Part shown: piece after piece, positions 1 through 36,975 of the stretch
Layout: every line of letters begins with the position of its first letter
Position numbering within the stretch: position 1 is the first letter of the stretch
NCBI RefSeq assembly: GCF_009912395.1
Contig: NZ_WNDO01000001.1
Coordinates: 124,001-188,000, forward strand
DNA from: Luteibacter sp.
GTDB taxonomy: Bacteria; Pseudomonadota; Gammaproteobacteria; Xanthomonadales; Rhodanobacteraceae
Reading direction: 5' to 3'
DNA length: 64,000 nt
Program-made: the position numbers and the translations under genes
Notes under the pieces: generated by a model
The model's input: only the letters and a program-made list of their open reading frames with translations
The model's database searches: none
Told to the model about the DNA's origin: nothing

Positions 1-125
1 GCGAAGTCGATCCACGCCGGAGACGGCGTACCGTTGAGTCGCACCAACCCGCGCGGCTGGCGAGCAGCCTGCATCGATGGATCGATGACCGCGGCGACCG
101 ACGAGAGGTCTTGAACTTCAGTCAC
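1..125 (-). CDS. Phage baseplate/tail gene, 5' end only
   Basis: Only the first 41 codons are inside the window; the gene runs off the left edge. It begins with GTG, which overlaps the TGA of the upstream LysM baseplate gene in a GTGACTGA junction, so translational coupling is likely. The visible residues include VRLNGTPSPAWIDF. A gene after the LysM baseplate protein in this kind of tail operon often encodes a hub or gpD-like protein, but that is inference from order only. The reading frame is well supported; the function is not. Confidence 0.6.
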   Translation of the reverse strand, partial: MTEVQDLSSVAAVIDPSMQAARQPRGLVRLNGTPSPAWIDF

Positions 126-1074
126 CCAGCAACCCTCCCGCGTTGTCGGCGCGTAGCGGCACCGAGATGGTTTGCAGACCGGTCAGCATCGGGTCGCTTA
201 GGCCGTTGGCCTTGGCGATGCCGGTCCATGCCGTGGCGTCTCCGTACTGCGAGGCCGCCATGTCCATGAGGTTGCCGCCGGACACGGGAACCGAGCGGCC
301 AGCACCCGCCACTGAACCCAGGTTCGAGCGCATGCGGCCTACTACGTTCTGTAGCGCGTAGAGGTTGGGCAACTGGTTGAATGCCACGACCTGGGCCGCC
401 AGCGATTGCGACGACAAGCCGATGGGCGTGTTGGGCAGCACGCCGCCAAGCGTTCCGATGTTCTGGATGCTGTTGCCTGCACCGGCGATGAGCTGATTTG
501 TGCGCGTAAGCACCGTCCCGATCGGGCCGAGCACGCTGTTGATGACCGAGGTCGAGGCATTCGCGAAGCTCGACACGCCGGTCACTGCCGAGTTCAGCGT
601 TCCCAGCGCTGACGACAGCGCCCCGTCACCTATGCTCCCTCCGAGGCCGATGGCGGACGACATGTCGTCACCCATGGCGTCATCGATCGATCCGCCGGCC
701 ACCTGGGTAATGGGCGCCGTCAGGTCTTCGACAACCTCCAGGCTGATCCTGTAGGGAATCTCGTAGGCGCGACGGAAGTCCGCCTCGAAGGTCGCGATCA
801 CCACGTTGAAGCGGAAGGCATCCCAGGTCAGTGTCAGCGCGCGCCCCTGCTTGCGAAGGGTGTCGATATACCGGGCGCGCGACACCGCATCCTGGCCGCG
901 GAACCAGCCGCGCCAGTCCTTCGGCGCGTCGTCCGGTCCCATGGCATCGACCACCCGCTGGCCACCAACGAGCTTGTGGACAACCAGCGCCTGCCCACCG
1001 CCGAACAGAATGGACTCGGGGACCTCCATGTCCCGAAACTGGAAATCGCCCAGCGTGACAACCGTCGTAGCCAT
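118..1074 (-). CDS. Phage baseplate protein with C-terminal LysM-like domain
   Basis: 318 residues. The N-terminal part (about 1-125) looks like a tail/baseplate domain. The middle (130-250) is low-complexity, rich in Gly, Ser and Asn. The last 60 residues contain a LysM-like motif (NLMDMAASQYGDATAWTGIA followed by NGLSDP). Proteins of this form follow the tape measure gene in contractile-tail operons and help assemble the baseplate or inner tube end. The gene starts 10 bases after the tape measure stop and overlaps the next baseplate gene. A role in peptidoglycan contact during infection is possible but not shown by the sequence. Confidence 0.8.
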   Translation of the reverse strand: MATTVVTLGDFQFRDMEVPESILFGGGQALVVHKLVGGQRVVDAMGPDDAPKDWRGWFRGQDAVSRARYIDTLRKQGRALTLTWDAFRFNVVIATFEADFRRAYEIPYRISLEVVEDLTAPITQVAGGSIDDAMGDDMSSAIGLGGSIGDGALSSALGTLNSAVTGVSSFANASTSVINSVLGPIGTVLTRTNQLIAGAGNSIQNIGTLGGVLPNTPIGLSSQSLAAQVVAFNQLPNLYALQNVVGRMRSNLGSVAGAGRSVPVSGGNLMDMAASQYGDATAWTGIAKANGLSDPMLTGLQTISVPLRADNAGGLLGD

Positions 1075-1084
1075 GTCTCTCCCG

Positions 1085-3472
1085 TCAGCGGGCTTGGTTC
1101 ATGCCGACAGGCGCCGGCGTTGCGGAGAAGTCGAAGGCGTTGCCGCCGCGCTGTGGGGCGCTGAGCATGTCGCCGAAGTGCGGGGCGAGGTATTTGCCGA
1201 CCTTCTTTCCGTCGAGGTAGACGTCGCCCGCGCCGCCGCCCTGTGCCGTGGGCTTCTTCGGCGCGACGAACGGCGAGCGGCTCATGTAGTCGGTCTCGGC
1301 CTTACGACTCAGCGGGTCGTCACTGAATACCCGACCGATCGACGACCACGGCTTGAATTCCCGCTTGCCCGTGGCCTTGTTGAACGGGTTCCACAGGTCG
1401 TAGAGAGTGCCGGATAGCGTGTCGTCCTTCTGGCCCGTCACCTTCGCCGCGAGCGGATTGATGGCGTTGTCGTTGAGCCATCCGCCGGTCTTCCATCCGA
1501 TGTAGGCGGCCATAAAGACGCCGGCCGCCGAGGCGATGGCGCCAAGCCCAGCTCCAACCCCAGTAAGTAGACCGCCCAGCCCCCCAGCGGCCGTTACTGC
1601 CGTTCCGATAAGCGTCAGTGCGCCCCCAACAGCCAGAATCGATCCACCAATTACCGCTAACGCAGCGACCGCCCCGAAGACGATGACCAAGCCCTTCGTG
1701 AGGGTTGAGTGGTCATTGATCCACGTCGCGATCTTTTCGATCAGGGGGGTGACAAACTGGAGCCCCTTAACCAGCATTGGAAGCACAACCGCCCCAAGAC
1801 GTACCGAAGCCGTCTCAAGCTCCTTCTGCGCTCGCAGGTACTGGCCGCGATAGGTTTGGCTCTCCTCATCGACCGACGCATTAATACCAAGCGCCTTCTT
1901 CTGCGCTTCGTCGGAGTGGTGGATTGCCGCAAGCTGGCGATCGATCAGACTGAACATCGCGCCGCCAGTGCGGCCAAAGATCATTGTGTTCTCGCGAGCC
2001 TTTTCCGCCGTGGTTGCGATACCCATACGGGCATACATCGGGAGGATATTCTTCTCGTAGAACTCCACTGGATCGCTGGCGAACGTCGCCATGTCGCGAA
2101 GAGGGTTGCCCTTGAACTGCTTGATGCCGCCCTGCGAGTTCCACTGGATCTTCGACGCGTCCCAGATGCCGTTGTCCGCAAGCAGGTGCGCGACCTGGTT
2201 CGGGATGCGCACGCCGCCGACAAGGCGGTTGTAGGATGTCATCCACGCGTTGCCGGCGGTGCTGCCCTTCAACTCACCGATGACCGGCTCGAGCTTCCCG
2301 AACAGCGCCTCGTTGTTGAGCCCCTGCGCCGCGACGCCGCCTCGGGCGATGAACTGGCGAAGCTGCTCCCAGTCCACGTTGCCGCCAGAGCTGCGTATTG
2401 CCTTCCATCCCTGATCCGCGATCGAGTTGAACGTGGCCGCGTCTTTCAACCCGCCGCGCATCTCGATGAAGCGGAGCATGGCGAGGCTTTGCGTGTGCAT
2501 GCGCGACTGCGAAGCGCCGTCAAGGCCCTGGGTCGCGTAGGCGATCTTCGCCAGGACTGGAGCCGCGAGCTTGGCGCCCTCCAGCGCCTTGCTCCCGTCG
2601 AGGCCCGACTCGCGGAAGACGCCCTGCGCCTCGGTCACGTTGTTCATCGCGTCGATGATCGACGTGCCGATGATGTGCATCCCCTCGGCGAACTTCACGG
2701 CTTCTCGATTGACCGCGTCGCTCATGCCGAAGAGGCGGAACCTCGCCTGAGCCTGCTCGTACTCCGATGCCTTGTCGATTGGTCCGCCGAGCATGCCGAA
2801 CATGGCACGCCCCGTGCCGGCGAGCGCATCGCCACCGATCAGTCCGCCGAAGCCGCCGAAGCCGCCACCAGACCCGGATCCACCGCCGCCCGCACCACCG
2901 CCGCCGCCGCGCCATCCGCGCCAACCCGCCCAGCCAGCGGCGGCCATGCCTGGCATGCCCATGCCCCCGCCAACGCCGCCGCCAGACATGCCGCCACCGG
3001 ACCCACTACCCGTCAGGAGCAACGGACCATTGGCCGCCGGACCACCCAGAGCCAGGGCGCCCCCCGTGCCGGTGAGCAGGCGCTGTCCGGGACCACCTAG
3101 CAGCATGGGGGCCGAGCCGCCGCGGGCACCCGCGAAAGCAGCGATCGCCATCATCCCGCCACCGCCAGCACCGCCGAAACCGCTCCCGCCACCGCCGTAG
3201 ACGGACATGCCTCCCGAGGCACGGGAGGCGCGCTCGGCAGACGAGGCGTAGCCATCGGCGGCGCGATGGGCGCGATCGAAACCGCTGGCGGCCGAATCGG
3301 CCCATGTCGAGCTGAAGCCGCGCCGCGTGGCCTCGTTGATCTTGATGATCGTGTCGAGGAGGCCCTTGGCCGACTTCTGCGCCTTGTCGAACTGCGCAGC
3401 CAGCTTCAAGATGCCGCCGCCGGTGGCATCGACGACGCCGATGCGCACGCCGATCTTGTATGCTTCGAACAT
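1085..3472 (-). CDS. Phage tail tape measure protein
   Basis: 795 residues. This protein sets tail length and is threaded through the tail tube before being released into the cell at infection. The N-terminal segment (1-95) is helical with Lys/Ala/Asp repeats. Residues about 95-215 are strikingly Gly-rich. An alpha-helical body follows, then a hydrophobic block at about 590-668 (VIVFGAVAALAVIGG and following) that could insert in the inner membrane. It lies between the HK97 gp10-like gene and the LysM baseplate gene, the normal place. The length fits a short to medium contractile tail. Its start codon overlaps, on the other strand, the first codon of a small membrane-protein gene. Confidence 0.88.
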   Translation of the reverse strand: MFEAYKIGVRIGVVDATGGGILKLAAQFDKAQKSAKGLLDTIIKINEATRRGFSSTWADSAASGFDRAHRAADGYASSAERASRASGGMSVYGGGGSGFGGAGGGGMMAIAAFAGARGGSAPMLLGGPGQRLLTGTGGALALGGPAANGPLLLTGSGSGGGMSGGGVGGGMGMPGMAAAGWAGWRGWRGGGGGAGGGGSGSGGGFGGFGGLIGGDALAGTGRAMFGMLGGPIDKASEYEQAQARFRLFGMSDAVNREAVKFAEGMHIIGTSIIDAMNNVTEAQGVFRESGLDGSKALEGAKLAAPVLAKIAYATQGLDGASQSRMHTQSLAMLRFIEMRGGLKDAATFNSIADQGWKAIRSSGGNVDWEQLRQFIARGGVAAQGLNNEALFGKLEPVIGELKGSTAGNAWMTSYNRLVGGVRIPNQVAHLLADNGIWDASKIQWNSQGGIKQFKGNPLRDMATFASDPVEFYEKNILPMYARMGIATTAEKARENTMIFGRTGGAMFSLIDRQLAAIHHSDEAQKKALGINASVDEESQTYRGQYLRAQKELETASVRLGAVVLPMLVKGLQFVTPLIEKIATWINDHSTLTKGLVIVFGAVAALAVIGGSILAVGGALTLIGTAVTAAGGLGGLLTGVGAGLGAIASAAGVFMAAYIGWKTGGWLNDNAINPLAAKVTGQKDDTLSGTLYDLWNPFNKATGKREFKPWSSIGRVFSDDPLSRKAETDYMSRSPFVAPKKPTAQGGGAGDVYLDGKKVGKYLAPHFGDMLSAPQRGGNAFDFSATPAPVGMNQAR

Positions 3473-3755
3473 GCCAATACCTTTACGAATCAGGCTTCAA
3501 GACTGGCTGGCTGACCGTTTCTCGTTCATCCAGTACGCGGTGCCAAGGGTCCAGCCTGCAAAGCCGGGGTTGGATTGGCTGAAGGTGCGCCGGCAACTGG
3601 GGGACCTCGCCATCGGCGCCGCTGCCCTACTCGTCGCAATCCACGTGGTGGCAAGAGCACTGGCGCCGCGCGCCGGTGGGCCGCCGGTCGCCCTACTGCT
3701 GTTCGGCGCCGTCCTGGCTGCGATACCTGGCACCGTTATCGTGCTGCTCCTGTGA
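3471..3755 (+). CDS. Small two-helix membrane protein on the strand opposite the tail operon
   Basis: 94 residues from the ATG at 3471; a start at GTG 3540 is also possible. Two hydrophobic stretches are visible: LGDLAIGAAALLVAIHVVAR and VALLLFGAVLAAIPGTVIVLLL at the extreme C-terminus. No good ribosome site precedes the ATG, so the start is uncertain. The stop overlaps the GTG start of the next + strand gene (GTGA), a coupling signature. It fills the gap between the tape measure gene and its upstream neighbour, where the minus strand has no convincing gene. I do not recognise the family. By position it could be a superinfection-exclusion protein. Confidence 0.55.
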   Translation: MPIPLRIRLQDWLADRFSFIQYAVPRVQPAKPGLDWLKVRRQLGDLAIGAAALLVAIHVVARALAPRAGGPPVALLLFGAVLAAIPGTVIVLLL

Positions 3756-3901
3756 CGGAGGAAGCGTCACGCCGACGCAAGCGCACCGCGTGGCAGATCG
3801 CGTTCCTGACGCTGATCGCTGCCATCGCCTACCTCGAGATCGTTAAGGAAGCGCCGGTTAATCCGACGACAGCGGAACAAACATCAGGTCACCACCGATA
3901 A
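3752..3901 (+). CDS. Small single-pass membrane protein, coupled to the preceding gene
   Basis: 49 residues starting at GTG. A basic N-terminus (SRRRKRTA) leads into one membrane helix (WQIAFLTLIAAIAYLEIV) and a short polar tail. This suggests an N-in single-pass inner-membrane protein by the positive-inside rule. It overlaps the upstream small membrane gene by four bases and converges with the last 44 bases of the HK97 gp10-like gene. The pair would be transcribed against the late operon, so it needs its own promoter, which I could not identify. Function unknown. Confidence 0.5.
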   Translation: MTEEASRRRKRTAWQIAFLTLIAAIAYLEIVKEAPVNPTTAEQTSGHHR

Positions 3902-4358
3902 GGCCAGCCATGGCGGCTTCGGCGAGGATGCGGAGCACCTTTGCCTCATTTCGAATGGCGGCCGGCGCGAACACTGCGCGTGGAGGCATGCGTGGCGTGC
4001 CCATTTCGAACCACACTCTGCGCTCGTCGTTGGTCCCGACGACCGCCTTCAGTCCTACCGCGCTTTTCGTAATCGTGTCGCGGAAACCTCCAGAGGCAAG
4101 AAGGGGCGCGTCAAGCGGATAGCCCGCGCGCTCCTTCTGCTTCTCGGTCGACGGCGCGAGCTGCTCCCATGCAGGAATCAGCCCGACGCCACCGCGGTCC
4201 GAGGCAATCGCGTCTTGGTACTTGCCGATCTCGTCGCGCGCATCCGCCAGAACGACGTCCGCCGCGTCCTGCACGCCCCGGTGAAGGGCGACAGGCGCGG
4301 CGGCAGCGATGCGCACAAGGTGATCGGCGAAGTCGCCGAAGCTTTCGAAGGACCTCAT
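3858..4358 (-). CDS. HK97 gp10-like phage tail completion/virion morphogenesis protein
   Basis: 166 residues from ATG 4358, which overlaps the stop of the frameshifted chaperone product (AAATGAGG). A longer start at 4388 would overlap coding sequence of the chaperone extension and is less likely. The segment VWFEMGTPRMPPR is characteristic of HK97 gp10-type proteins, which finish the head-tail joint or tail terminus. Its place between the tail chaperone and the tape measure gene is unusual, because such genes normally sit between the capsid and tail tube genes. Confidence 0.65.
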   Translation of the reverse strand: MRSFESFGDFADHLVRIAAAAPVALHRGVQDAADVVLADARDEIGKYQDAIASDRGGVGLIPAWEQLAPSTEKQKERAGYPLDAPLLASGGFRDTITKSAVGLKAVVGTNDERRVWFEMGTPRMPPRAVFAPAAIRNEAKVLRILAEAAMAGLIGGDLMFVPLSSD

Positions 4359-4917
4359 TTCGGCTCCTTGAAGCTCATGGTGGACCAATCGAACTCGTTG
4401 CCCTCCATCTCGCTGAAGGAGATGGCGAACGCGGCGCGAGTCACATCATTGAGGGCGAAGGCCACGTCGAACGGAATGCCATTTTTTACCAGCCAGAGGC
4501 ATTCGCGTATCGCCGGGGCCGTCGCTAGTTTTTTACCGCTTCCTTATCGGCTTCCGTGTCCTGCTCGCCGAAGTTTGCCTGGACAGCCGCCGCAACGGCC
4601 ATGATGCCACCCTCGTCCAGACGCTGGATCAGCGCCTCCAGCTCGCGCTTGGTGCTGATCGAGACGGCGTCCCCGTCGATGCTGCCGACGAACGTGAGCG
4701 GCAGAACCATGCCCATGTACGTCTGGTTCGAGGCAGAGGCGCCGAGCATCTCGACCAAGCGAAACTGGGCGAGCACGCCAGGCTTACGGAGCACGATGCG
4801 ACGACCCTTCGCGTCGGTGGTGGCGACCTCCGCCGAAGCTTGGCGGATCAACTGCTCGCTCGCCGTCGGCTGAGGCACGTCGCCGGCCTCGGTGATGGTA
4901 ACGGTGGGTTCGGTCAT
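4355..4917 (-). CDS. Tail assembly chaperone, -1 frameshift product (gpG-T type)
   Basis: 187 residues made by slipping from frame 0 into frame -1 at A AAA AAC (4534-4528). The first 130 residues are shared with the short form. The slip adds 57 residues read from 4528 to the TGA at 4357-4355, beginning LATAPAIRECLWLVKNG and ending DWSTMSFKEPK. The extension has no start codon of its own, has protein-like composition (PFDVAFALNDVTRAAFAISF) and ends exactly at the ATG of the next gene. Two-product chaperones of this kind sit just upstream of the tape measure gene in lambda (G/GT) and many tailed phages and guide tube assembly around the tape measure. Confidence 0.85.
4525..4917 (-). CDS. Tail assembly chaperone, short (unshifted) form
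   Basis: 130 residues. It starts three bases after the stop of the tail tube gene and stops at TAG 4527-4525, immediately after the slippery heptamer. Visible features are an N-terminal acidic/Thr segment, a conserved-looking core (VLRKPGVLAQFRLVEMLG) and an acidic C-terminus (EQDTEADKEAVKN). In lambda-type systems the short form is made in large excess over the frameshifted form, and the ratio matters for tail assembly. Assignment rests on order (sheath, tube, chaperone, tape measure) and on the frameshift signal. Confidence 0.85.
   Translation of the reverse strand: MTEPTVTITEAGDVPQPTASEQLIRQASAEVATTDAKGRRIVLRKPGVLAQFRLVEMLGASASNQTYMGMVLPLTFVGSIDGDAVSISTKRELEALIQRLDEGGIMAVAAAVQANFGEQDTEADKEAVKN
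4528..4534 (-). promoter_or_regulatory. -1 ribosomal frameshift slippery heptamer A AAA AAC
   Basis: On the minus strand the zero-frame codons are GTA AAA AAC TAG, so the heptamer is in the X XXY YYZ register required for tandem -1 slippage and is followed directly by the zero-frame stop. A-AAA-AAC is among the slippery sequences known to work in bacteria. A downstream structure may contribute (GC-rich ACGGCCCCGGCGATACGC follows), but I see no clear long stem. Confidence 0.85.
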
Positions 4918-16798: not shown

Positions 16799-17022
16799 GT
16801 GTCGGTCCTCCGCGCCGCGCGCGCCGGGTTGTTCGGGAACAGGTTGGCGACGATGGTCGTCAGGTTCGTGATCAGGGCGCCCACGATCAGGCTGACCATC
16901 TCGCGGTTCTCCGCCGGCACGGCGGCGTTAACCAGCAGCGCGAGGGCGACCGCGACCATGGTCACGATCAGGATGGCGACGCCACCCTTCAGGGCGCGCA
17001 CGCTACGGCCGGCGAGATTCAT
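16795..17022 (-). CDS. Putative holin
   Basis: 75 residues with two predicted membrane helices (GGVAILIVTMVAVALALLVN and VSLIVGALITNLTTIVANLF) separated by a short charged turn, and a basic C-terminus (PARAARRTDT). Size, topology and a place two genes from the endolysin fit a class II-type holin that permeabilises the inner membrane to time lysis. Overlaps both neighbours by 4 bases. Confidence 0.65.
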   Translation of the reverse strand: MNLAGRSVRALKGGVAILIVTMVAVALALLVNAAVPAENREMVSLIVGALITNLTTIVANLFPNNPARAARRTDT

Positions 17023-17528
17023 GCGGATACCAGTTGGGCGGGCTCGTCACCGGTGCGCATCATGCGCGCCAGCTCGAGCATGCGGCGGCGGTCGTCGTCG
17101 TTACGGGCCTTCTCCGGCCACTTCGTGAGCATCAGCTCGTCGGCGGCGTCGTCCCACCGGCTGTTGTGAATCGCCGTCCACAACGGCTTGCACTCCAGAA
17201 GCGCGGTGATGCGGATGGCGAGGGCCACGTGGGCCAGCACAGAGAGGCGGACCGCGTCGAGCTGCGGGTAGATCGCCGCCCGTGACCGCAGTGCGGACAC
17301 GAAGCGAGAAAGGTTCCTCTCGGCCATCTTCAGTAGCTCCTCGCGGCTGACCAGGCGAGCAGCACCGATTCGGGCGAAGTCAGCGAGGTCGCGGTCGCCC
17401 ACGTCGAGCGGGGCGTTGGAGAAAGGTTCGTGGATCGCGATATGCCGACACGCGATCTCGATCGCGCGCGCGGAGGTCTCGTCAACCCGGGCGGAGGCTT
17501 CGGCGGCATCGTCATCGGCTTCGATCAC
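17019..17528 (-). CDS. Lysozyme-like (T4/GH24 fold) protein lacking catalytic motifs
   Basis: 169 residues. Residues about 75-161 resemble the C-terminal lobe of phage T4-type lysozymes (LDAVRLSVLAHVALAIRITA, then W-AA-E--L-KWPEK and MMRTGDE). In active enzymes the N-terminal lobe carries E, then D and T in a G--T-GYG context. Here only a possible Glu34 (AIHEPF) remains and the G--T-GYG motif is absent. It overlaps the GH19 endolysin gene by four bases. It is probably a non-catalytic relic or a repurposed protein, with lysis carried out by the GH19 enzyme. Confidence 0.5.
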   Translation of the reverse strand: MIEADDDAAEASARVDETSARAIEIACRHIAIHEPFSNAPLDVGDRDLADFARIGAARLVSREELLKMAERNLSRFVSALRSRAAIYPQLDAVRLSVLAHVALAIRITALLECKPLWTAIHNSRWDDAADELMLTKWPEKARNDDDRRRMLELARMMRTGDEPAQLVSA

Positions 17529-18079
17529 TGGAGCCCCAGCGCGGCGCGCGCCACGGTGCGGCGGCGCTGCCGGTCATCCCAGCCGTTCGGCAGGCCGTTG
17601 GCGTTCTTGCCGTTGATGCGGATCGACTCGGTCAGGAAGTCGCCCTTGTCGGCGTAGGTATTCAGGCCCTTCAGGCTCCAGAACCAGCCGGCGGCGATCG
17701 CGGCGTAGTCGTCGCGCTCCAGCAGCTGGGAGTTCTTCACGAAGTCGACGCCCACGGCCTTAGAAAGCGCGGCGTAGTTGGCGCGGCCGGTGACCATGAT
17801 CAGGCCGCGACCCATGAAGCGCATGCCGTCCCCGGGCTGCGTGTTGCCTAGGTCGGCACGACCCTCGTAGCGAGCCTGCGCCGGCACCTGAGTCGGGTTC
17901 CAGATCTCACGCGTGCGGGCAAAGCCCATCGACTCGTGGCCCACCTGGGCGATGAAGTCGGCCTGCCGCGCCGGGGTGTTGATGGCGAACTCGTCCATCG
18001 CAGCCGTCAGCGGAAGCGCCCACTGCTGTGCGCGCGGCAGCGAGATGCCCGCTGCGCGGCTTAGGGTGTTGGCGTCCAT
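17525..18079 (-). CDS. Phage endolysin, GH19 chitinase-like lysozyme
   Basis: 184 residues from ATG 18079. The GH19 motif VGHESMGFAR gives catalytic Glu49. The second acid is probably Glu72 in YEGRADLGNT. GRGLIMVTGRANY follows and is a typical GH19 signature. It cleaves peptidoglycan glycan strands at the end of the lytic cycle. There is no signal peptide, so it depends on a holin. It is the first gene of the lysis block, downstream of a bidirectional terminator. Confidence 0.88.
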   Translation of the reverse strand: MDANTLSRAAGISLPRAQQWALPLTAAMDEFAINTPARQADFIAQVGHESMGFARTREIWNPTQVPAQARYEGRADLGNTQPGDGMRFMGRGLIMVTGRANYAALSKAVGVDFVKNSQLLERDDYAAIAAGWFWSLKGLNTYADKGDFLTESIRINGKNANGLPNGWDDRQRRRTVARAALGLQ

Positions 18080-18240
18080 GAGGCTCCGAGAATAGGGTTG
18101 GCCGATCCCGCCAGGGGAAACGGGATCGGCCGGTTTGCGCCCTAGGGGTGAGCGCAAAGGGGGAAAGGGCTGCATGCTGGTGCACCGGCATGCAGCGGCC
18201 CGATGCTTTCGCAGAGCGGGAGACGCTGGCGGTCAAAACG

Positions 18241-18271
18241 AAAAAGCCCGACGCATGGCCGGGCTTTTTTT
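18241..18271. terminator. Bidirectional intrinsic terminator
   Basis: Stem AGCCCG/CGGGCT flanked by five A residues on one side and seven T on the other, giving a terminator in both directions. It separates the leftward early block (ending at 18319) from the lysis/late block that starts at 18079. The late promoter should therefore lie between about 18240 and 18080. Confidence 0.8.
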
Positions 18272-18283
18272 GCAGGGAACCCC

Positions 18284-18300
18284 GCATAGTGAAACTATGC
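18284..18300. promoter_or_regulatory. Perfect 17-bp palindrome between early and late blocks
   Basis: GCATAGT-GAA-ACTATGC, 7-bp arms with 3-bp spacer, next to the terminator at 18241-18271 and 18 bases after the end of the GIY-YIG gene. It may be a protein-binding site (late regulator) or an RNA hairpin that protects the early transcript end. Confidence 0.4.
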
Positions 18301-18318
18301 GTCGACGTGTCCGGAAAG

Positions 18319-18840
18319 TCAACACCTCGCGAAGAGCCGTTTACGCTTCGCGGTGATCGTGACCCCCTGCGCGGGAGCTGGCGTCGTGTAGCAAGAACCG
18401 ATGGGGTCCCCATCGGCATCCAATATCGACACCTTCTCTGCTCCGTCAAGCAACTGCTCGCGAAAGCTGATTCGCCCATCGCCATAGGGCTGCGGCGTAT
18501 GCCTCGCATGCCTTGGAGGATGCGACATCTGGTGTGCGGCAATATCGTACACGTCCGCCTCTAAGCCATGAATCTCCGCTTCCGTTGCGACGCGCCCCCA
18601 GGGATCGAACCACTCCCCGCGAAGCCGTGCGTGCGCGTAGGCTTCGTGCATCATCGCCTCGCGTTGCGACGCGGTCAGCTTGTCGCCCACATCGCAGGAA
18701 TAAACCTGGGTCACCGGGTAGGGGCAACCCGTCTGGATCTCGCTGAGGCGCTGCCGGACGCTCCCTGCTCGTCCGAGCTTCACGAGCGTGCGGTCCGGCG
18801 CCGCCACGAAGATCGCGTAGATGAAATACTCAAGGCTCAT
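18319..18840 (-). CDS. GIY-YIG nuclease family protein (MUG113/T5orf172 type)
   Basis: 173 residues. The N-terminal 90 residues match the MUG113/T5orf172 branch of the GIY-YIG fold: FIYAIFVAAP, then VKLGRAGSVRQRLSEIQTGC, later H-AYAHARLRGEWFDP. The C-terminal half is unassigned. These proteins are found in phages and mobile elements, and the catalytic competence of this branch is not well defined. It is the last gene of the leftward early operon and starts 4 bases inside its upstream neighbour. Confidence 0.75.
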   Translation of the reverse strand: MSLEYFIYAIFVAAPDRTLVKLGRAGSVRQRLSEIQTGCPYPVTQVYSCDVGDKLTASQREAMMHEAYAHARLRGEWFDPWGRVATEAEIHGLEADVYDIAAHQMSHPPRHARHTPQPYGDGRISFREQLLDGAEKVSILDADGDPIGSCYTTPAPAQGVTITAKRKRLFARC

Positions 18841-25612: not shown

Positions 25613-25852
25613 TCAGGCCGCCTTCTTGCGGGGCTTAGTCCCGCGCGGCGCCCGACCGTACACATCCGGGCGCATCTGGTAGCGCGTGCGGCGCCCTTCG
25701 TTCGCCGCCTCAATCGCGAGACAATGCTCAGACGGGATGCGGCGCCACTTATAGACAGCCTGCGCAGTGACGCCAGTGACACGCACTACTTCACGGATGG
25801 TCGGAAGGCCTGTGGCCTCGAGGATCTGCTCGGGGGTCATGGATGGGTTCAT
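25613..25852 (-). CDS. Cro-like repressor (YdaS/Cro HTH family)
   Basis: 79 residues. The HTH (IREVVRVTGVTAQAVYKWRR, about 18-38) followed by IPSEHCLAIE is typical of YdaS/Cro-type prophage regulators, with a basic C-terminus (APRGTKPRKKAA). It is divergent from cI and downstream of promoter TTGACT-N17-TTGAAT. The predicted transcript start falls at the A of the ATG, so the mRNA may be leaderless. It should favour lytic growth by repressing cI. Confidence 0.8.
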   Translation of the reverse strand: MNPSMTPEQILEATGLPTIREVVRVTGVTAQAVYKWRRIPSEHCLAIEAANEGRRTRYQMRPDVYGRAPRGTKPRKKAA

Positions 25853-25859
25853 GGCACGA

Positions 25860-25920
25860 ATTCAACCATGGTGTATTCATGAAGTCAACCATGGTTTCGC
25901 CTGTGTATTCAACAATGGTT
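25860..25920. promoter_or_regulatory. Immunity operator region (OR-like): three operators and the cro promoter
   Basis: Three near-identical 10-bp palindromes are spaced 23 and 24 bp apart: AACCATGGTG at 25864-25873, AACCATGGTT at 25887-25896 and AACAATGGTT at 25911-25920. The leftward promoter has -35 TTGACT (25888-25883) and -10 TTGAAT (25865-25860) with a 17-bp spacer, so operators 1 and 2 cover both hexamers. A possible cI promoter -10 (TATTCA, 25906-25911) adjoins operator 3. The layout parallels lambda OR. Confidence 0.8.
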
Positions 25921-25923
25921 GGC

Positions 25924-26622
25924 ATGGAGACCATTGCCGATCGACTCCGCGATGCGCGGACGAGCCGAAAGCTAAGACAGGGCGATTTGGCGGACGCCGC
26001 AGGTGTAACGGCGGCGGCTATTTCCGCGCTCGAAAAGGGGCTGACCAAGAGCCCTACGCCCGAGACCCTGTTCCCGCTGGCCCGTAGACTGGGGGTTTCG
26101 CCAGAATGGCTCATCACCGGGAAGGGTGAACGCGAGGCTGGAACGTCTCAACCCGTAGCGAGATTTGAGACCACCAAGGGATACCTTCGCTTCCAGGTCA
26201 TGGGAGAGGGAGGCGCGGGACCGGGCATGATCAATGCGGACAGGCCAGAGGTGTTGCAGGAAATCGATGTAGCAGAATGGAGCGTTCGCAGTGCCCTTGG
26301 CCGCACTGTCTCGCCTGACCGGGTGAAGCTGCTGACCGTACGCGGAAACTCGATGGCGCCTCGGATCAAAGATGGCGACGTTGTATTCGTAGACATCCAG
26401 GACACTGCGATCATGGATGGCGGTATCTTCGTTTTTGTCATGCACGGGCAGGCTATCGTGAAGCGGCTCGACATTCGCTCAGACGGATTCCATATCGTCA
26501 GCCTCGCCGAACCCGGCAACCCGGATGTCATTGACCCCGACCACTTCGACTCGGTGCACATCGCAGGCAGAGTGCTTGGCACCATTCAGCTGCGCAACGC
26601 GAACGAAGTGGCTTACTCATGA
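25924..26622 (+). CDS. CI-type prophage repressor with S24 peptidase domain
   Basis: 232 residues from ATG 25924; an ATG three codons upstream (25915) is also possible, and one of the operators covers it. The N-terminal HTH_3 domain spans 1-62 (LRQGDLADAAGVTAAAISAL). The C-terminal S24/LexA-like domain has Ser143 in RGNSMAP and Lys180 in QAIVKRLD, the catalytic dyad for RecA-stimulated self-cleavage. It maintains lysogeny by binding the operators at 25864-25920 and probably 28252-28284. DNA damage should induce the phage. Confidence 0.9.
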   Translation: METIADRLRDARTSRKLRQGDLADAAGVTAAAISALEKGLTKSPTPETLFPLARRLGVSPEWLITGKGEREAGTSQPVARFETTKGYLRFQVMGEGGAGPGMINADRPEVLQEIDVAEWSVRSALGRTVSPDRVKLLTVRGNSMAPRIKDGDVVFVDIQDTAIMDGGIFVFVMHGQAIVKRLDIRSDGFHIVSLAEPGNPDVIDPDHFDSVHIAGRVLGTIQLRNANEVAYS

Positions 26623-35591: not shown

Positions 35592-35901
35592 AGACCTACA
35601 CGCGCCGTTCGACGAAGCTGAGGCCGCGCGACGCCTCGGCGTCAGCAAGGCAACCCTGATGCGCGAGCGCGCGGCCGGCAAGATTCATCCCATGCGGATC
35701 GGTAAGCGCGTGATCCGCTACACCGAAAGCATCCTCAACGAGTACCGCGAAGCATGCAGGAATGTCTCGGCCAAATCGGCGACTTCTGGCTCAGCAAAAG
35801 GCCGGGTTCAAACCAGTGGTGCCGAACCTGGTTCGACGCCGATACTCGACAAACGCGACGCGCATCGGTTGGCACAGACGATCTTCAAGCGGCCAAGCTG
35901 A
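35578..35901 (+). CDS. Excisionase-like MerR/HTH_17 DNA-binding protein
   Basis: 107 residues from ATG 35578. Residues 11-60 form a MerR-like HTH (EAEAARRLGVSKATLMRERA, then AGKIHPMRIGKRVIRYTESI), typical of phage excisionases and recombination directionality factors. The last 45 residues are Ser/Lys/Thr-rich and read like the shadow of the integrase gene, which overlaps in another frame for 148 bases. Probably directs excision with the adjacent integrase. Confidence 0.75.
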   Translation: MGAAEDLHAPFDEAEAARRLGVSKATLMRERAAGKIHPMRIGKRVIRYTESILNEYREACRNVSAKSATSGSAKGRVQTSGAEPGSTPILDKRDAHRLAQTIFKRPS

Positions 35902-36854
35902 TCCTTTGGGAGTGGTTCGCCAAGCACGGCCGCGTGGGCAAGCAGGAGGCCCACGAAACGAGCCTGGAAATGGTCTTCGTGCGCTACTACCAGCAGCACG
36001 CCGAGTTGACCGAGTCGGCTGAAATGGCACGTGTGGCGCTTGGCTACTGGTCGGACTTCTTCGCCGGCGCGATGGTGGCCGAGGCGACGCCGCAGCGCCA
36101 GCGCGAGTTCATCGGATGGCTCAAGGGGAAGGGATTCTCCGACGGCTACGTCAAGCGGATACTGACGGTCGGAAAGGCGGCGCTGAATCGCGCCTGGAAG
36201 GAAGGAGAAGTCGACACGGTGCCCTACGTCATCCCCGGGCAGGACGGCCCCCCGCGAGACGCAGTGCTGACCGTGGCCCAGTCGGCCGCGCTGTGGCGAG
36301 CTGCCGAACTGCCGCACGAGCGCATGTACCTGGCCCTCGCTTTCGGGCTCGCATCGCGGCCGGAGACGATCCTCGACCTGCGCCGGGGCTTCGTGGACTT
36401 CGATCGGCGCATCATCGACACCAACCCGCCAGGGCGGCGCCAGACGCGCAAGTATCGGCCCGTCGTGCCCGTGGGCGCATTCCTACTGCCGTGGCTCGTG
36501 CAGGCGCCAGATGGCCCGCTGGTGGCCTGGCGCGGGAAGCCGATCGAGAGCTTCAAGACGGCGTGGCGGAAGATGCGCGATCGGGCAAGACTGCCGGCGT
36601 ACTACGTTGCGAAGGACATCCGCCACACGATGGCGACGGAGATGCGCTCGAAGAACGTGCCGGAGGCGGAGATCGACGGCTTCCTCGGCCACAAGGCATA
36701 TGGTGGGGTGACCGAGGTCTACGCCAAGTACCGGCCCGATTTCCGCAGCCAGGCCGTCGCCGTGATCGACGGATACATGGAAGGCCTGCGTGCTAGTTGC
36801 GTGTTAGACGCGGGATACGTGCCTGACCGCAAGGCAAGAAAAAAGGAGCCTTGA
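35754..36854 (+). CDS. int: Tyrosine integrase of the prophage
   Basis: 366 residues. The N-terminal arm-binding segment (IGDFWLSKRPGSNQWCRTWF) precedes a core-binding domain (70-155) and a catalytic domain. Catalytic residues: Arg202 (LASRPET), Arg290-His291 (KDIRHTMA; the usual first His of box II is Lys287), His313 (FLGHKAY) and Tyr323 (VTEVYAKY). It integrates the phage into the 3' end of the adjacent tRNA-Val gene. It overlaps the HTH gene by 148 bases and ends in a terminator hairpin. Confidence 0.9.
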   Translation: MQECLGQIGDFWLSKRPGSNQWCRTWFDADTRQTRRASVGTDDLQAAKLILWEWFAKHGRVGKQEAHETSLEMVFVRYYQQHAELTESAEMARVALGYWSDFFAGAMVAEATPQRQREFIGWLKGKGFSDGYVKRILTVGKAALNRAWKEGEVDTVPYVIPGQDGPPRDAVLTVAQSAALWRAAELPHERMYLALAFGLASRPETILDLRRGFVDFDRRIIDTNPPGRRQTRKYRPVVPVGAFLLPWLVQAPDGPLVAWRGKPIESFKTAWRKMRDRARLPAYYVAKDIRHTMATEMRSKNVPEAEIDGFLGHKAYGGVTEVYAKYRPDFRSQAVAVIDGYMEGLRASCVLDAGYVPDRKARKKEP

Positions 36855-36900: not shown

Positions 36901-36945
36901 TGGTGGGCGGTACAAGGATCGAACTTGTGACCCCTACCATGTCAA
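36901..36945. other. Probable prophage attachment site (right end) in the tRNA-Val 3' half
   Basis: The integrase gene ends 46 bases from the CCA end of tRNA-Val(GAC), the usual arrangement for tyrosine integrases that use a tRNA 3' half as attB. The matching left copy must be outside the window, and no second copy of this stretch is visible here. The exact core length cannot be read from one end; the end coordinate is approximate. Confidence 0.6.
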
Positions 36946-36975
36946 GGTAGTGCTCTACCGCTGAGCTAACCGCCC
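36901..36975 (-). tRNA. tRNA-Val (anticodon GAC)
   Basis: 75 bases including encoded CCA. Acceptor GGGCGGT pairs with ACCGCCC. D arm is AGCTCAGCGGTAGAGC. Anticodon stem-loop is CTACC-TTGACAT-GGTAG with GAC. T arm contains TTCGATC. Fully canonical, so integration has kept it intact. Confidence 0.95.

Follow-up and report, generated by a model that had tools for sequence, protein, structure and literature searches.

The locus examined here is a pair of small genes, called smA and smB, in a stretch of 64,000 nucleotides (nt) from Luteibacter sp. (assembly GCF_009912395.1, contig NZ_WNDO01000001.1, positions 124,001 to 188,000 of the forward strand), the whole of which is referred to as the window. 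The gene content of both strands identifies the window as part of a temperate prophage. Its minus strand carries the sheath, major head protein, terminase, endolysin and replication genes, and smA and smB share the plus strand with the repressor and the integrase; they are placed between the genes of the tape measure and of a completion protein (Table 1). A sequence-only reading of the window had described two plus-strand frames of 94 and 49 amino acids (aa) with two and one membrane helices and a GTGA overlap; the coordinates (smB GTG 3752-3754, smA TGA 3753-3755) and a hydropathy scan (segments at residues 46-64 and 75-93 of smA, 13-31 of smB) agree with it, and both frames are confirmed. 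It had also noticed that the smA start codon overlaps the tape-measure start codon on the opposite strand, which is confirmed, positions 3471-3472 being common to the tape-measure ATG (CAT 3470-3472, minus) and the smA ATG (3471-3473). Its statement that the pair fills the only gap in the tail operon is right for the gap of about 385 nt that holds smA and smB and has to be corrected for another 136 nt (4389-4524), which likewise have no frame in the gene list. The 3' end of the completion gene is overlapped by smB over 44 nt, and the guanine-cytosine (GC) content by codon position is nearly equal in smA (0.75/0.47/0.72) and the adjoining completion gene (0.73/0.47/0.73).

Table 1. Features of the window discussed in the text.
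Feature	Position	Strand	Remarks
smA	3471-3755	+	94 aa, ATG start; N-terminal motif RLQDWLADRFSFIQYAVPR and two C-terminal membrane segments
smB	3752-3901	+	49 aa, GTG start; one predicted membrane segment
Tail tape-measure protein	1085-3472	-	795 aa; presumed smA target; hydrophobic block at about residues 571-690
Tail completion/neck protein	3858-4388	-	phrog_5, expectation value (E) 9.5e-5; other flank of smA/smB
Conserved tail-region gene, downstream of tape measure	118-1074	-	phrog_21362 (unknown function); smA-independent bait
Presumed smA promoter/leader inside tape-measure 5' end	3440-3470	+	TATGCT 3459-3464; weak, putative
CI-like repressor of prophage	25843-26622	+	
Integrase of prophage	35754-36854	+	adjoins tRNA-Val 36901-36975
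Endolysin	17525-18175	-	about 14 kb from smA

Relatives of the locus were collected mainly with baits other than smA. The tape measure gave 47 viral loci, and an alignment of the gene downstream of it gave 80 viral loci (three already in the set) and 15 genome loci from Ralstonia, Cupriavidus, Dyella, Herbaspirillum, Aquabacterium, Serratia and others; a few loci came from smA searches. A model of smA built from 20 members was then run over all frames of both strands. The site could be scored in 108 loci with a completion match, a tape measure and the downstream gene, which fall into 78 tape-measure clusters. These were 104 of the 139 bait loci together with the window, L065, L066 and L068. 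The 35 bait loci left out comprise five lacking the downstream gene, all with smA (L013, L021, L023, L039, L050), one with the site partly visible and smA present (L124), seven long loci with neither a completion match nor smA (L071, L152, L153, L154, L157, L159, L160), and 22 others with no completion match, mostly ending too near the site. An smA homologue (E <0.01, accepted on the antisense strand only) is present at the same site in 67 of the 78 clusters, a count that includes L119 and L126 although these match the C-terminal part of the model only; without the window and the smA-fetched L065 and L068 it is 64 of 75. ATG was the start chosen by script in all 67. When every locus with a completion match was considered, all 101 smA matches (E <0.1) were opposite to the completion gene and none was on the same strand. 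The length of smA is 67-101 aa, except for one run-on frame (L105) that continues into a long non-membrane tail for a total of 132 aa, perhaps by a frameshift or a sequencing error. Its 3' end enters the completion gene in some loci (e.g. L093, L116), and in L041 and L044 the completion match is separated from smA by about 2.7-2.8 kb of other sequence, smA remaining at the tape-measure side.

Judged by these homologues, smA is a real, conserved gene family that is absent from the four libraries searched. Indeed, its frame is under purifying selection according to substitution patterns: the ratio of non-synonymous to synonymous changes (dN/dS, Nei-Gojobori) is 0.08-0.28 in the listed pairs of at least 70% identity, four comparisons in the L016/L017 group excepted (0.47, on few changes), and it reaches about 0.58 in more distant pairs. 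Against L009, the nearest relative of the window, dS is 1.17 and dN 0.27 (ratio 0.23), so that the lack of selection that would have spoken against the sequence-only reading was not observed for this plus-strand frame. A chance open frame is ruled out by the same-site homologues and by dN/dS. The N-terminal segment is conserved, with a family consensus of about RxxEWLADRxSxVQYPxxR, and the membrane part is variable; in the alignment of 64 members, from which L105, L119 and L126 were left out, Q21 is invariant and R8, A14, Y22 and the adjacent proline column reach at least 90%. Conservation due to the tape-measure ribosome-binding site alone was also ruled out, since the motif is about 22 codons long and substitutions favour third positions. 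Hydropathy and charge describe smA as a small predicted inner-membrane protein: 61 of 66 members have one predicted membrane segment, four have two (window, L009, L010, L109), L014 has none at the cut-off, and the N-terminal side is the more basic in 59 of the 61 single-segment members. The 64 members had no convincing match in Pfam, PHROGs, NCBIfam or PADLOC; the weak matches (no family in PHROGs, three in NCBIfam, two in PADLOC and one in Pfam) each concern one or two members with best E values of 0.0022-0.0065, and the window's own is to the PADLOC '2TM' effector model (0.0035). Nothing significant was found when the smA profile was compared with solved structures.

The clusters lacking smA describe the site from the other side. 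In 7 of these 11 (L015, L024, L026, L045, L053, L054, L107) the tape-measure start lies at most about 90 bases from the end of the completion match, and this closing up of the tape measure to the completion gene fits a removable insert. In two others, L028 and L033, the place of smA is taken by an antisense frame that is unrelated to it and has two membrane segments; such a frame is seen in L028 and L033-L037, and in L033-type loci it has an ATG at the tape-measure start codon. L158 has a membrane frame on the sense strand, and the gap of about 690 bases in L051 gave no smA match with the model. Among the loci outside the count, L071 and L159 have no smA and an upstream part without completion or chaperone match. 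The Ralstonia prophages L152, L153 and L157 have a tail of the same kind but more distant, and a profile search shows their completion gene touching or overlapped by the tape-measure frame; L154, also from Ralstonia, and L160 likewise have a more distant tail. If these five distant loci are added as separate cases, 67 of 83 carry smA. Thus, smA is common and not universal, and the operon closes neatly in most cases that lack it.

The link with the tape measure was examined by comparing distance matrices (mirror trees) in 50 of the 67 clusters, those with all flanking proteins; L119 (weak match), L029, L105, L126 and L134 were set aside by hand, and the others had no flanking protein of sufficient length. 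Distances of smA correlate with those of the N-terminal block of the tape measure (r 0.60) and with those of its hydrophobic block at about residues 571-690 (up to 0.63), and hardly at all with windows covering about residues 238-570 (-0.08 to 0.18) or with the last 50 residues (0.02). Given the completion, downstream, chaperone-like and tube proteins, the GC difference and the tape-measure N-terminus, the partial correlation between the membrane part of smA and the hydrophobic block is 0.42 (p 0.002). Ten of the 50 tape measures have no hydrophobic block and, by eye, go with different smA types. In the 40 loci with the block the partial correlation is 0.30 (p 0.002), or 0.29 with composition controlled, as against 0.09 (p 0.145) for the middle of the tape measure; it ranges from 0.25 to 0.38 when each cluster of at most three loci is removed in turn, the cluster of 29 being kept throughout. 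With the tube protein the same test on the block gives 0.08, with the completion protein 0.00. These values suggest that smA and the membrane block of the tape measure evolve together, by a modest margin and with a permutation that leaves some relatedness in. The tape measure itself evolves as separate blocks: distances of its middle parts agree with one another and hardly with any neighbouring gene tested.

If smA were a membrane protein required by the phage itself, perhaps in handling the hydrophobic tape measure or in the entry of its own DNA, this would account for the co-variation with the hydrophobic block and for the presence of smA in most clusters (67/78). However, smA is antisense to the late operon, which makes late co-expression unlikely. 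It is missing from 11 of 78 clusters and from five more distant loci, and a stand-alone copy exists; we regard such a helper as unlikely. Another explanation is that smA acts after DNA entry, binding the tape measures that an invading phage produces in the cell and so preventing the assembly of tails. This is the action of Tab of Pseudomonas aeruginosa, a small lysogen-expressed protein whose target is linked to the C-terminal part of the tape measure (PMC10884400). The block with which smA co-varies likewise lies in the C-terminal third. But smA is predicted to be inserted in the membrane whereas assembly is cytoplasmic, and the lipoprotein-like and secreted-looking partners described below suggest action in the envelope, so that blocked assembly seems rather improbable to us. 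As for a role of smA in lysis, it was thought unlikely because the endolysin gene is about 14 kb away (17525-18175) and smA is antisense to the late genes.

Expression signals were compared between the strands over the 100 bases that precede smA in 66 loci. The best sigma-70-like score there is 6.09 on the antisense strand and 4.33 on the sense strand (p 4e-7), with 6.95 versus 4.61 in 30 spacer loci and 5.46 versus 4.13 in 35 overlapping loci. The comparison of strands was relied on, the use of the tape-measure interior as a control being confounded by conserved 5' codons. In L093, L098, L110, L116, L145 and L148, some of them close relatives, the best hexamer is TATACT at 33-38 bases upstream of smA. 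The start codons of smA and the tape measure overlap as in the window (two bases, offset -1) in 27 of the 66 loci, where an antisense leader would cross the tape-measure start. The transcript rather than the protein might therefore keep the tape measure silent in the lysogen. The dN/dS well below 1, the conserved protein motif and a stand-alone smA in a genome without a match to the flanking tail gene all speak against regulation by the transcript, and we consider it very improbable.

The wider distribution of smA was followed in whole genomes, in which the counts of matches are lower bounds. In the family of G870, which contains the Ralstonia locus L146, at least 10 of 299 genomes have an smA match (E 1e-5), at no fewer than 11 places of which two had been collected before, and tail-completion and tape-measure matches stand beside smA in all 11 places fetched. 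In the window's own family of 233 genomes, at least six have a match at E 0.01: matches lie in the window's own genome (two places, both tail operons), in G045 and G080 (tail operons), standing alone in G005, and, taken as chance, in G145 and G228. The second place in the window's genome (L065, G000:C21:66000-74824) is another prophage of the same tail type with its own divergent smA. The pairwise match of this protein to the smA of the window covers the first 15 residues only (E 0.03), and the tape measure of the second prophage is 36% identical to the window's over residues 231-795. In L188 (G885), the smA frame is cut to 48 codons and the tape measure is in two frames, probably in a decayed prophage. 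The match in G145, which reached 2e-5, was dropped as chance, being in a 403-codon frame that by eye looks like a different enzyme and has no tail match in 12 kb, as were weak matches in G228, G595, G395, G768 and G805. One smA search had given seven hits besides the window, of which L002 is real and L003-L008 have no smA match by the model. Searches of viral contigs with smA alone, of annotated phages with two smA relatives, and of plasmids with one smA relative and with P0001 were unproductive.

The copy in G005 is an smA homologue of 83 aa. It shares an ATGA overlap with the end of the gene for a 225-aa protein, in which a hydrophobic segment lies close to the N-terminus. The pair is flanked by BrnA-like and HicAB-like genes, with ordinary chromosomal genes beyond (gene types by eye), and the flanking tail gene has no match in this genome, which is 95% complete. 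Its region (L173, 16649-19466) is a small chromosomal cluster, with a GC content of 57.7% (17001-18600) compared to 61.7% for the whole stretch. A copy beside toxin-antitoxin-like genes, like the small size and membrane nature of smA and its varied envelope-type partners, could be taken as a sign of lysogenic conversion, in which the envelope would be changed for reasons other than phage entry, such as stress or signalling. This would leave the fixed site at the tape measure and the co-variation unexplained, and it appears improbable.

The partners of smA vary. smB was seen only in the window, L009 and L021, with an identity of 46-47% to the latter two, whose smA proteins are identical, so that the evidence for its conservation amounts to a single relative. 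The GTGA overlap is not retained in these two, the junction being TGACGATG in L009 and TGATGATG in L021, and most clusters show smA alone. The two-protein form proposed by the sequence-only reading is a lineage-specific variant, and the conservation and tape-measure linkage that it asked about were found for smA (most clusters, fixed site, modest co-variation) and not for smB, which is confined to the nearest relatives. The partners in L010 and L039 belong to tail operons, where they precede smA, and both match phrog_8545, annotated 'superinfection exclusion Sie-like' (2.1e-5 and 2.7e-5, respectively). The match is to the partner and not to smA, and the window has smB in that role. The 225-aa partner in G005 is related to those of L039 and L010 (phmmer within a set of four sequences, 1e-9 and 2e-8, respectively), so that a relative of the matching partner pairs with smA outside a tail operon. 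The L010 partner also has a sub-threshold match to PF12869 tRNA_anti-like (E 0.0011, 18.9 bits versus a cut-off of 23.5), and we take it to be OB-fold-like. A lipoprotein-like partner in L156 (by eye) has a much weaker relation to the L010 and L039 partners (0.02-0.05), and partners downstream of smA are lipoprotein-like in L066 and secreted-looking in L076 (both by eye). The L039 partner gave an unproductive search against phages and only its own contig among viral contigs.

Taken together, we lean, with somewhat more confidence than doubt, towards smA being a superinfection-exclusion gene, a reversed moron, of temperate contractile-tailed phages that is aimed at cognate tape measures. In the lysogen, where the late operon would be silent, a promoter that lies within the tape-measure start, or immediately upstream of it, might drive antisense smA and its partner where present, which would be smB in the window and OB-fold-like, lipoprotein-like or secreted-looking proteins elsewhere. 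The protein would be inserted in the inner membrane, where its conserved and basic N-terminal segment would face the cytoplasm and its variable helix would lie within the bilayer. During injection by a phage whose tape measure is cognate, this helix may meet the hydrophobic block of that tape measure in the membrane and keep it from forming the DNA conduit. Upon induction, late transcription would run against smA and turn it down, so that the phage does not block its own cycle. We infer the expression in the lysogen, the tape-measure target and the block of entry. The exclusion idea of the sequence-only reading comes out strengthened for smA and narrowed for the smA-smB pair.

Several points weigh against an exclusion function. 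Exclusion morons are usually accessory, and presence in most clusters is unusual for one. Five loci with a more distant tail have a visible site and no smA (L152, L153, L154, L157, L160), and in the genomes of eight bait loci, six have one smA match each and two with distant tails (G876, G877) have none among the matches listed. The conserved N-terminal part of smA does not follow the hydrophobic block (-0.07, p 0.794), the full-set value of 0.42 owes much to the ten loci lacking the block, and the same block correlates with the chaperone-like (0.22, p 0.020) and downstream (0.19, p 0.023) proteins. A consensus scan of positions 3200-4400 of the window found no promoter and no terminator. The label 'Sie-like' is a family name that comes with a weak match, the 225-aa partner in G005 has no PHROG match, and only one stand-alone copy of smA was found. 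Finally, two smA loci in one genome (G1019:C1:1285676 and 1336416; L183, L189) are 99.97% identical over 3,240 bases and about 50.7 kb apart; they could be a double lysogen of one phage, although a single event can also give rise to a tandem prophage.

On a larger scale, and with more doubt than belief, we may picture a tail family of temperate phages with a near-core antisense exclusion gene. Each type of tape measure would be accompanied by its own membrane inhibitor, expressed only as long as the tail operon is silent, and bacteria could acquire this inhibitor, together with an OB-fold-like periplasmic partner, as a two-gene defence that stands by itself. If true, a tail operon can carry a mutually exclusive lysogeny gene on its other strand. 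The large family, with inhibitor and presumed target adjacent and seemingly co-varying, would offer natural pairs for chimera tests and residue-level mapping. Moreover, smA adds a gene family missing from the four family libraries searched.

No antisense exclusion gene at a tape-measure gene was seen in the titles and abstract openings listed by searches of an open-licence library, and the known systems resemble smA in different respects. SNIPE (PMC13190303) is a membrane-bound defence that engages tape measures during injection, but it is a nuclease with a DUF4041 domain, and smA is much too small to be one. Tab of Pseudomonas phage JBD26 is, like the proposed smA, a small prophage-expressed protein aimed at the tape measure; it differs (PMC10884400) in having 83 residues, lying between terminase genes, possessing an anti-Tab and acting on assembly. 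This placement was not seen here, smA being at the tape measure in the window and its relatives. The exclusion proteins P22 SieA, TP-J34 Ltp and Tuc2009 Sie2009 can be likened by description, being membrane proteins or lipoproteins that block DNA entry, although they are different proteins of different phages; TP-J34 escape maps to the tape measure, and changed tape-measure genes let phages escape exclusion by HK97 gp15 and Ltp (PMC10883804). Olg1 (gene 10) of Pseudomonas phage Fc02 is a small, lysogen-transcribed exclusion gene overlapping a gene on the opposite strand, but it sits in the lysis-lysogeny control region and not at the tape measure (PMC9936078). The parallel with HK97 gene 15 drawn by the sequence-only reading holds for place and type of product and fails for strand and sequence. 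Like smA, gp15, annotated as a moron, is small, has a hydrophobic segment and is encoded in a tail operon directly upstream of the tape-measure gene. It has 62 aa, an N-terminal hydrophobic segment and a sense-strand gene with an annotated putative terminator, whereas smA is antisense, with a C-terminal hydrophobic segment, a conserved N-terminal motif and no terminator-like site in 3200-4400; the two share only a 20-residue hydrophobic stretch (5.4 bits). The best reading would thus be that smA follows a logic like that of HK97 gp15, with an unrelated sequence and a reversed orientation.

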